Assembly (NCBI GenBank): GCA_022825185.1
Contig: JAJDYK010000163.1
Span: 1-15,926 of the forward strand
Reading direction: 5' to 3'
DNA: 15,926 nt
From: Candidatus Latescibacterota bacterium
GTDB lineage: Bacteria > Latescibacterota > UBA2968 > UBA8231
Every line of letters starts with the position of its first letter. Position 1 is the first letter of the stretch. Positions 12,415-14,971 of this stretch are shown in pieces. A program made the position numbers and the translations under genes. The notes below the pieces were generated by a model that saw nothing but the letters and a program-made list of their open reading frames with translations, was not told where the DNA came from and did not search any database.

Positions 12415-12458
12415 AATAAACGGGGTGAATCCCTTACCCCAACAAGGAGGATACCTTG

Positions 12459-12647
12459 GTGAACAAAGGATTTAGCAGGGAGCAGATCGAGCGCGTCGCG
12501 CGGATGTACAAATGCAATCAGGACGCCAGCCGGGCGCTGGGGATTACGATCCGCAGTTTTAGCCGGCTCTGCCGCAAATACGATATTGAATCGCCTTTTG
12601 CGCGGCGGCGGCGCTGTCAGGTGGCCAAAAGCACTAACCCCGCATAG
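12459..12647 (+). CDS. Small Fis-type helix-turn-helix protein, first gene of the psp operon
   Basis: A 62-residue basic protein. Residues about 9-45 (EQIERVARMYKCNQDASRAL, then GITIRSFSRLCRKYDI) look like the Fis-type HTH found at the C-terminus of sigma-54 activators: helix, A-x-x-L-G-I, recognition helix ending K-Y-x-I. A basic tail (ARRRRCQVAK) follows. No AAA+ or receiver domain is present, so it cannot by itself drive sigma-54 promoters; it may autoregulate, dimerise with an activator elsewhere, or act as an architectural protein. The GTG start at 12459 lies 8 bases after AAGGAGG (12444-12450); a TTG at 12456 is an alternative. Its stop overlaps the pspA ribosome binding site, so the two are coupled. 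Residues are plain to see; the role is inference. Confidence 0.75.
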   Translation: MNKGFSREQIERVARMYKCNQDASRALGITIRSFSRLCRKYDIESPFARRRRCQVAKSTNPA

Positions 12648-13740: not shown

Positions 13741-13769
13741 TTGACAACTGCACTTCTGTTCAGTATGTT
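13741..13769 (+). promoter_or_regulatory. Consensus sigma-70-type promoter of the 98-aa gene
   Basis: TTGACA (13741-13746) and TATGTT (13764-13769) are separated by exactly 17 bases. Predicted start is near 13776. The spacer is almost entirely occupied by the first CTG-N10-CAG box. Confidence 0.75.
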
Positions 13770-13792
13770 TTAATTGCTGAACAAAAGTGCAG
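13748..13792. promoter_or_regulatory. Two inverted CTG-N10-CAG boxes, LexA/SOS-like operators
   Basis: CTGCACTTCTGTTCAG (13748-13763) and its inverted copy CTGAACAAAAGTGCAG (13777-13792) match at 15 of 16 positions. Each has the CTG-N10-CAG frame of the gamma-proteobacterial LexA box with a following TA. Each also fits nearly all of the GTTCAG-ended Myxococcus LexA consensus as I recall it. Box 1 fills the -35/-10 spacer and box 2 covers about +2 to +17, the arrangement expected for tight LexA repression. Another dimeric repressor remains possible. Confidence 0.6.
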
Positions 13793-13815
13793 TAAAGCGA
13801 TTTCCCAAGTCCTCT

Positions 13816-13837
13816 CTGGCGCACCCCCGAGCGCCAG
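13816..13837 (+). other. Leader hairpin upstream of the 98-aa gene
   Basis: CTGGCGC (13816-13822) pairs perfectly with GCGCCAG (13831-13837) around an 8-base loop, within the roughly 80-base untranslated leader and 9 bases before the AGGAGG at 13847-13852. It may stabilise the message or tune translation; with no U-run it is not a terminator. Confidence 0.5.
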
Positions 13838-13858
13838 CACTCCCTCAGGAGGTTTCCA

Positions 13859-14155
13859 ATGCACAGGCAGCGCGCATCATTCCCCACATCCCCCTCTATA
13901 TCCCGTCTGGGCGGCGAGCTCAGCGCGGTCATTAATCGGGTGCGAAGCGCTTTCGGCCCCATTCCCATGGGCGGCTCGGCCGCCCGTCCCCGAGTCCAAC
14001 GGGCCGAGCAAGTAGTAGATCAAACCGCTCGTCAGCTCCTGCGCGGCGAAGCGGATCTGAGCGCTTGGTATCGGGTGCTGCGTCAGTACGAAGATGCTTG
14101 GATGCTAGAGTTGGAAAGGGTGCGCGATGCGCGGGCCGAGCGCTGTGCAGCTTAG
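13859..14155 (+). CDS. Hypothetical 98-aa protein, possibly SOS-regulated
   Basis: I do not recognise this protein. The ATG lies 6 bases after AGGAGG (13847-13852), a very good start. The first 45 residues are Pro/Ser/Gly-rich and probably flexible (SFPTSPSISRLGGEL ... FGPIPMGGSAARP). The rest is charged and helical (RAEQVVDQTARQLLRGEADL, then WYRVLRQYEDAWMLELERV). It has no signal peptide, membrane segment or enzyme motif; the only Cys is near the end. The C-terminal half has a loose FliE-like pattern (LL-GE-DL ... VR), too weak to name. It has its own promoter with two LexA-like boxes and a leader hairpin, and it converges with the third BMC vertex gene with a 4-bp overlap. If DNA-damage control is real, a role in division arrest or repair would be natural, but that is inference. 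Confidence 0.7.
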   Translation: MHRQRASFPTSPSISRLGGELSAVINRVRSAFGPIPMGGSAARPRVQRAEQVVDQTARQLLRGEADLSAWYRVLRQYEDAWMLELERVRDARAERCAA

Positions 14156-14415
14156 CTGAGGTGTATCTCGTCCGCCTTGCCGACGATAGCTGCGTCCACA
14201 GGCAATGGAGGGTCAAAGGCGTTGCAGGCTTCGCGTGCGACCTCGACGATCACCGCGTCTCCCTCGCGCAGGGCCGCCCACGTCGCGCAGACCTCGGCCT
14301 CGCCCATAGGCTCTAAACGCTCGTCGATGTCTTGGGTCAGGTGCAGTATCTGGCCGCGGAATGGCTCAATGCACTGCGAAAGCACTACGGTGCCCACTAC
14401 CTTGGCTAGCTTCAC
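14152..14415 (-). CDS. EutN/CcmL-family microcompartment vertex protein (BMC-P), third copy
   Basis: An 87-residue protein with the EutN/CcmL beta-barrel pattern: VKLAKVVGTVVLSQCIEPF, then GQILHLTQDID, LREGDAVIVEV and a closing PVDAAIVGKADEI. BMC-P pentamers cap the vertices of bacterial microcompartment shells. This copy is the most divergent of the three, with an Ala/Trp-rich loop (CATWAAL) in place of the usual VDGVQAG. The start is GTG at 14415, sharing GTGA with the preceding stop; a longer in-frame start at 14460 would add 15 basic residues unlike the family. It is the last gene of the ispH-BMC-P operon and overlaps the convergent 98-aa gene by 4 bp. Confidence in the family is lower than for the other two copies. 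Confidence 0.8.
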   Translation of the reverse strand: MKLAKVVGTVVLSQCIEPFRGQILHLTQDIDERLEPMGEAEVCATWAALREGDAVIVEVAREACNAFDPPLPVDAAIVGKADEIHLS

Positions 14416-14672
14416 GCGGCAGTCCCTTCGTCGATAATTCCCACGATTACGCTCCTGCACGGCGGCCGCTTGGCTCCGGTCACCTCGGCCCCGGCGGCCC
14501 CTGACTGCACGACCAGCACTTTGCTACCGATTCCCGCTTGGACCCCATCCACCGCCACCTGCAAAGCGCCACTCGCCTCGTCTTCAGGACGCACTACCAT
14601 GATCTTTTGCCCGGCGAGCAAGGGATGTTTGCTGCTGGCGACTACGTGGCCAATGACGCGGCAGACCCTCAT
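14412..14672 (-). CDS. EutN/CcmL-family microcompartment vertex protein (BMC-P), second copy
   Basis: An 86-residue protein of the usual family length. It opens MRVCRVIGHVVASSKHPLLAGQ, then KIMVVRPED, followed by VAVDGVQAGIGSKVLVVQSGAA and SVIVGIIDEG. These are the classic EutN/CcmL strands: GxVxxTxKxxxLxGxKLLxV, DxVGAGxGxxVLVxxGSxA and IVGIID. It should form pentamers at microcompartment shell vertices. The ATG overlaps the first copy's stop as ATGA, so the genes are translationally coupled. Copies two and three share only family-level similarity, so they are old paralogues that probably fill different vertex roles rather than a recent duplication. Confidence 0.93.
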   Translation of the reverse strand: MRVCRVIGHVVASSKHPLLAGQKIMVVRPEDEASGALQVAVDGVQAGIGSKVLVVQSGAAGAEVTGAKRPPCRSVIVGIIDEGTAA

Positions 14673-14971
14673 GCGACTTGTTTTTCTATTGGGCGTCCAA
14701 ACGCCTGTAGCGAATCCACGATGCCGATGATCAGAGCATCTACTGGCATCTGATCCATGCCCGGTGCCTGCCGCGCCGAGCTACCCTGTACGACGACGAC
14801 GAGTTCGCCCTCGCCCGCTTGCACGCCGTCAATGCAGACGAGGTGTTTTTGCGTGCGCTGCAAACCTTCGGGTGTGGCGGCGAGAATTTCGACTATTAAG
14901 AGTTTCTCGCCCTCGATGGCATCTACCTTGGCGCTGGAGACCACGTGCCCTTTGACGAGGCCGAGTATCAC
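14669..14971 (-). CDS. EutN/CcmL-family microcompartment vertex protein (BMC-P), first copy
   Basis: A 100-residue protein: MILGLVKGHVVSSAKVDAIE, then EKLLIVEIL, CIDGVQAGEGELVVVVQGSSARQA and DALIIGIVDSLQAF. This is a textbook EutN/CcmL sequence with a somewhat longer loop (TPEGLQRTQKHLV) and a short C-terminal tail. It forms pentameric caps of microcompartment shells. The start is GTG at 14971, sharing GTGA with the ispH stop. No hexameric BMC-H shell gene or encapsulated enzyme lies in the window, so the rest of the compartment, if any, must be encoded elsewhere, possibly upstream beyond the right edge. PVC-type fucose/rhamnose microcompartment loci are known to carry three BMC-P genes, which fits this trio. 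Confidence 0.94.
   Translation of the reverse strand: MILGLVKGHVVSSAKVDAIEGEKLLIVEILAATPEGLQRTQKHLVCIDGVQAGEGELVVVVQGSSARQAPGMDQMPVDALIIGIVDSLQAFGRPIEKQVA

Follow-up and report, generated by a model that had tools for sequence, protein, structure and literature searches.

A lineage-specific small gene under a double LexA-type operator in Latescibacterota, predicted to encode a short-lived SOS protein

In Escherichia coli and other bacteria the genes of the SOS response, which include lexA, recA, uvrA and other repair and replication genes, share a LexA operator palindrome within the core promoter. The E. coli operator is CTGT-N8-ACAG, and 17 LexA motifs had been reported by 2021 (PMC8565304). 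Among the products under this control are division inhibitors that differ by lineage, such as SulA, SidA, YneA and SosA (PMC9578287). A C-terminal Ala-Ala-COO− is the most important element in recognition of the ssrA tag, and ClpXP also acts on further cellular proteins whose degrons end in Ala-Ala (PMC7652416). Literature searches for Latescibacter with the SOS response or with LexA listed nothing relevant, judged by title and the start of the abstract. Here we describe a gene of 98 amino acids (aa) from Candidatus Latescibacterota bacterium, encoded on contig JAJDYK010000163.1 (assembly GCA_022825185.1), whose whole stretch of 15,926 nucleotides was analysed and is called the window below. 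Comparative evidence places this gene under LexA control, and by the sequence comparisons set out here it is a lineage-specific SOS gene of no known family.

The promoter, which with both of its boxes spans positions 13741–13792, is of the sigma-70 type (TTGACA-N17-TATGTT). The −35 hexamer TTGACA (13741–13746, plus strand) is invariant in an alignment (A2) of the window with seven relatives, as are the first three letters of the −10 hexamer TATGTT (13764–13769, plus strand), which follows after a 17-bp spacer. Predicted LexA operator 1, CTGCACTTCTGTTCAG (13748–13763, plus strand), fills positions 2–17 of that spacer, the same place that is occupied by the operators in the lexA and recA promoters of relatives. 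Predicted operator 2, CTGAACAAAAGTGCAG (13777–13792, minus strand), is an inverted copy of the first box, identical at 15 of 16 positions, and sits just past the inferred start site. The Shine-Dalgarno sequence AGGAGG (13847–13852, plus strand), whose GGAGG is kept in the seven relatives, lies 6 nt before the ATG at 13859 of the predicted SOS gene (13859–14155, plus strand; stop codon at 14153–14155). The original prediction, made from the letters of the window, had described this promoter, the two inverted 16-bp boxes, the ribosome site and the 98-aa gene, and all were confirmed at their positions. The gene call draws on homologues, a structure model, the C-termini of the family and the ratio of nonsynonymous to synonymous substitution rates (dN/dS); with a dN/dS of about 0.06–0.16 in six comparisons with the window, the gene is evidently real and under purifying selection.

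At up to three mismatches the window contains two box matches against 0.17 expected from shuffles, and at least two were reached in 4 of 200 shuffles, a test that takes no account of pairing, inversion or placement. Conservation of the boxes in relatives is the stronger evidence. Both boxes align in all seven relatives from named genomes, and both retain the strict CTG-N10-CAG form in six of them; the second box of the remaining relative (L005) reads GTG-N10-CAG, a single arm change.

The LexA reading survives comparison with the lexA and recA genes of related organisms, which the original prediction had named as its test. All of these comparisons were made in the genomes of relatives within Latescibacterota. 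Each of the seven nearest genomes has one LexA-domain match of at least 70 bits, and six have a second below this cut-off. In all seven, ATGAACTAATGTGCAG or ATGAACGAATGTGCAG lies shortly upstream of lexA, matching 11 of the 12 fixed positions of CTGMAC-N4-GTKCAG (in L019 the box starts 73 bases before the ATG). Two recA copies are present in each of the seven genus genomes searched (L025–L036); one copy is preceded by CTGAACATTGATTCAC (10/12) in 7/7 nearest genomes, and no box of 10/12 was found upstream of the other in the five loci examined. A lexA gene of 73–88 bits was identified in 29 of 30 further genomes. Within 220 bp upstream of lexA, a box of at least 10/12 is present in 29 of 31 regions (29 from the further genomes and two from the first seven), against 55 of 3100 mononucleotide shuffles; the two misses, counted as such, are L095 (9/12) and L096 (7/12, with a wrongly set lexA start). 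Most of the promoters inspected have the arrangement TTGAC-NN(N)-box-TAT, the geometry seen in the window. The promoter of the 98-aa gene thus carries the operator of its hosts' lexA and recA in the seven nearest genomes, with lexA sharing it in more distant ones, and on these sequence grounds we take the box to be the LexA operator in the window's relatives. Its form, [A/C]TGMAC-N4-GTKCA[G/C], differs from that of E. coli and presumably lies between the Gram-positive GAAC-N4-GTTC and Fibrobacter TGCNC-N4-GTGCA types.

Homologues of the 98-aa protein numbered 47 at E 0.01, and a profile raised this to 94 at E 0.1, the last three being weak. In this analysis the family was found only in Latescibacterota, where the profile detects it in 7 of the 11 genomes of the window's genus and in 32 of 64 across the phylum, many with a divergent second copy. 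The seven loci found in named genomes (titled Latescibacterota or Latescibacteria in five cases and Gemmatimonadetes or Gemmatimonadota in two) all belong to one genus of the genome collection, and the closest relative (L001) encodes a protein 98% identical to that of the window (synonymous divergence, dS, 0.08).

Loss of the boxes from homologues would have spoken against the original prediction; instead, the operator is conserved at the same promoter position across the family. The composite of promoter and operator reaches at least 16 of 18 positions in 44 of 46 upstream regions (the window plus 45 loci, L048–L092; a further copy, L093, was left out), distant paralogues included, and the operator keeps its place between the −35 and −10 hexamers. 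Only 1 of 2760 mononucleotide shuffles, which preserve base composition alone, scored as high. The exceptions are L090 (14/18) and L062, which has 94 bases before the contig ends. The 46 rows are not independent, since L048–L054 come from the genus genomes already described and many of the rest are closely related. A control with segments drawn at random from the scored loci reached 16/18 or better in 118 of 3000 cases; as the promoters themselves contaminate it, the shuffles are relied on. Paralogues near the detection limit of the profile (29–43 bits) also retain TTGACACCTGTTCTTTTGTTTAGTA-like promoters. A clear second box is seen only in the window's genus (7/7 relatives); no box of at least 10/12 was seen at that place in more distant homologues, L057 reaching 9/12.

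The same operator outlines a wider regulon. Searched genome-wide with one mismatch, the plain box pattern gave no excess over a reversed control (30 versus 28, and 29 versus 32), the bare palindrome being too short to be distinctive. Once the promoter hexamers were added (TTGACNNNTGMACNNNNGTKYASTA, up to two mismatches), six genomes yielded 45 matches and the reversed pattern 2. Three of the 45 are second boxes belonging to the 98-aa gene, and the pattern was devised after some of these promoters had been inspected, a circumstance that counts against our interpretation. The genes behind 13 composite places were read and ten of their proteins tested for family, two of these being the already known lexA and recA. 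LexA, RecA, UvrA, DNA polymerase I and SSB passed NCBIfam cut-offs; uvrA was among the genes upstream of which the original prediction had proposed to look for the box. A second UvrA-type protein, partial at the end of its stretch, scored above TIGR00630 and below NF001503, and a sigma-70-family factor passed the NCBIfam cut-off of a superfamily model only. Pfam cut-offs were passed by a topoisomerase/gyrase B-type protein (below NCBIfam cut-offs), a Pol-beta-type nucleotidyltransferase and a Rieske-domain protein. The operators of polA and of the sigma factor come from one genome each; for operators recurring in other genomes, the gene was read in named loci only, and some composite matches are chance-like (L170 and L171, for example).

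Two further observations concern this regulon. In genomes G001 and G011 a LexA-type promoter precedes the gene for a 610-aa GyrB/ParE-type topoisomerase subunit (L161 and L166; family tested for L161 only), a kind of gene that is not known to belong to the SOS response. A 27-aa hydrophobic peptide is encoded under a LexA-type promoter (16–18 of 18) in six genomes (G005, G009, G003, G004, G007 and G002; L193–L198), with the sequence MRREIISQGLMYALVSLFVFAVKPLLN in five and a close variant in G002. It starts 113–115 bases after the start of the TTGAC-box-TA promoter, behind the ribosome site AAGGAG (CAGGAG in one), and at L173 it is followed by ssb. In L159 and L160 a 30-aa relative is encoded 284 and 296 bases after a perfect box that has no good −35 hexamer. 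In size the 27-aa membrane peptide resembles TisB or SidA.

The 98-aa product was originally said to match no recognisable family, and the searches bear this out: no Pfam family was found at E 0.1, no NCBIfam family at E 1 for three family members, only chance-level matches in PHROG and no convincing sequence match in the PDB. AlphaFold2, run with 74 sequences, gave a model with a mean predicted local distance difference test score (pLDDT) of 89.6 and a predicted template modelling score (pTM) of 0.78, in which three long helices span residues 14–32, 44–61 and 67–97; comparison of this model by Foldseek and VIA-align gave no match exceeding what any helical bundle would be expected to give. 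The protein is small (11 kDa) and basic (pI about 10.9). Hydropathy shows no membrane segment (maximum 19-residue mean 0.58), and the product is predicted to be a soluble three-helix bundle. Conservation is concentrated in AVINRVRRAFG of helix 1 and at W70, L74, Y77, E78 and W81 of helix 3, the most conserved residues including N26, R27, R29, W70, Y77, E78 and W81.

The C-terminus is also conserved. Ala-Ala ends 82 of 91 homologues (the 94 profile matches minus the three weakest), as RCAA in 40, RHAA in 21, SRAA in 8 and other forms in the rest; the product of the window ends in RCAA, and the nine homologues without the terminal pair include visibly short or altered copies. In the window's subfamily, where 24 of 26 rows end in Ala-Ala, the pair is retained while the residues before it differ in type and count. 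In each of eight genomes of the phylum, the tmRNA tag ends in ALAA or AMAA (host tags DETNTYALAA, ADDNTYAMAA, ADDTYAMAA and ANDNTYALAA). Like these tags and other Ala-Ala-ended ClpXP substrates, the 98-aa protein presents a free, conserved Ala-Ala; its end differs in being encoded by the gene and in reading mostly R-C/H-A-A or S-R-A-A as against A-L-A-A. In five genomes, the RKH and GYVG loops of ClpX are kept in all eight copies, and the pore-2 loop is T-R-D-V in five copies, G-R-D-V in two and S-R-D-V in one, with at least one T copy per genome; the T position presumably corresponds to E. coli Thr199. G001 and G002 carry two clpX copies (L185, L186, L190 and L191), with Gly in pore-2 of one and Thr in the other, and the Gly-type copy is perhaps specialised for other substrates. 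Because the Ala-Ala is conserved, the host tmRNA tags end alike and Ala-Ala-COO− is key to ssrA recognition, a built-in ClpXP-type degron is the most likely interpretation in the window's subfamily, and the product is probably short-lived.

Taken as a whole, it is in our view quite probable that the 98-aa gene is a LexA-repressed SOS gene whose product acts as a temporary checkpoint effector and is removed by ClpXP, although the checkpoint role, taken on its own, is a guess from analogy. In the undamaged cell, LexA dimers on operator 1, in the promoter spacer, and on operator 2, after the start site, would keep the promoter tightly shut. On damage, RecA filaments would form and provoke LexA self-cleavage, allowing the strong promoter to make the 11-kDa soluble helical protein. 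This would bind a partner, most likely in the division, replication or recombination machinery, and impose a temporary checkpoint. After repair, LexA would stop transcription and ClpXP would clear the remaining protein via its C-terminal Ala-Ala. In Caulobacter, box properties did not predict the timing of induction (PMC12700426), and two boxes therefore need not mean late induction.

Several roles could be played by such an effector, all of them guesses by analogy: a role in division and one outside both division and the control of RecA, recombination or replication are about equally likely, and the control of RecA, recombination or replication slightly less so, none reaching an even chance. 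An SOS-induced division inhibitor, with a SulA-like role on FtsZ or a divisome protein and a sequence unrelated to SulA, is possible but somewhat doubtful. The double operator, near-consensus promoter, small size and probable rapid degradation are in keeping with this class, whose members differ between lineages (PMC9578287); the absence of a Pfam match and the all-helical model are not. The protein would resemble SulA in being SOS-controlled, soluble, small and likely removed by proteolysis, and differs in having no sequence match to it (none in Pfam at E 0.1 or NCBIfam at E 1), in its helical model and in its Ala-Ala end. SulA is mainly a Lon substrate. With SidA, YneA and SosA it shares the character of a lineage-specific small SOS protein, but unlike them it has no single transmembrane segment by hydropathy and is modelled as a helical bundle, and the 27-aa membrane peptide of the same regulon fits the SidA type better. 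A modulator of RecA, recombination or replication, with a DinI- or RecX-like role and a new fold, which would bind its partner through the AVINRVRRAFG helix and a face formed by W70, Y77 and W81, is rather unlikely; the presence of several repair genes in the regulon, the set of most conserved residues and the high pI are consistent with it.

Some observations weigh against the LexA-repressed, ClpXP-cleared effector. The gene is absent from 4 of 11 genus genomes; two of these keep the 119-aa gene found upstream, with a different gene directly behind it, indicating that the 98-aa gene has been gained or lost and is dispensable (in the other two the syntenic place was not found). In G001 and G002 one ClpX copy of the pair carries Gly at the presumed equivalent of E. 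coli Thr199. The terminal Ala-Ala is missing from two of the 26 rows of the window's subfamily. The divergent group lacks it in 18 of 20 rows; most of that group ends in RNN or similar, and the two rows that keep the pair are L075 (SLAA) and L090 (TMAA). This last absence would suit a stable protein whose terminal Ala-Ala serves binding and not proteolysis, an explanation we consider improbable, as the pair stays in the window's subfamily though the preceding residues vary in sequence and length, and the host tmRNA tags share it. Binding of the boxes by a repressor other than LexA is very improbable. In its favour, the lexA genes compared are those of relatives, and an additional, weaker LexA-domain match exceeds the cut-off in 10 of the 30 further genomes; against it, the same composite precedes lexA, recA, uvrA and a polA, and each of the seven nearest genomes has a single LexA over the cut-off.

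Other features of the window lie around the gene. A hairpin, CTGGCGC-N8-GCGCCAG (13816–13837, plus strand), occurs in the 5′ untranslated region; its 7-bp stem, 9 bases 5′ of the ribosome site, is largely invariant across the window and seven relatives, and its RNA fold score is weak (z −1.74). On the minus strand at 14155–14971 are three consecutive genes of the EutN/CcmL family (microcompartment vertex type), adjoining a LytB/IspH-type gene. At 12456–12647, upstream of pspA, a 63-aa open reading frame (ORF) encodes a helix-turn-helix protein with weak Pfam matches (RWP-RK and HTH_28). Over 48 residues it shares 58% identity with an ORF of G001 that lies 283 bases after the operator start (L162), in a predicted LexA-controlled locus that also encodes an SSB-like protein.

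We tentatively suggest that Latescibacterota have a checkpoint with an effector of their own, a soluble three-helix protein under one or two LexA operators with a tmRNA-like degradation signal, so that arrest would last only as long as synthesis, the 27-aa membrane peptide possibly acting beside it. More than one new way of stopping division has come to light through lineage-specific SOS effectors. The present analysis supplies the phylum Latescibacterota with a LexA code and the outline of an SOS regulon, and places within that regulon one conserved, testable candidate effector, whose gene-encoded Ala-Ala end makes the switching-off of the response open to a simple and decisive test.
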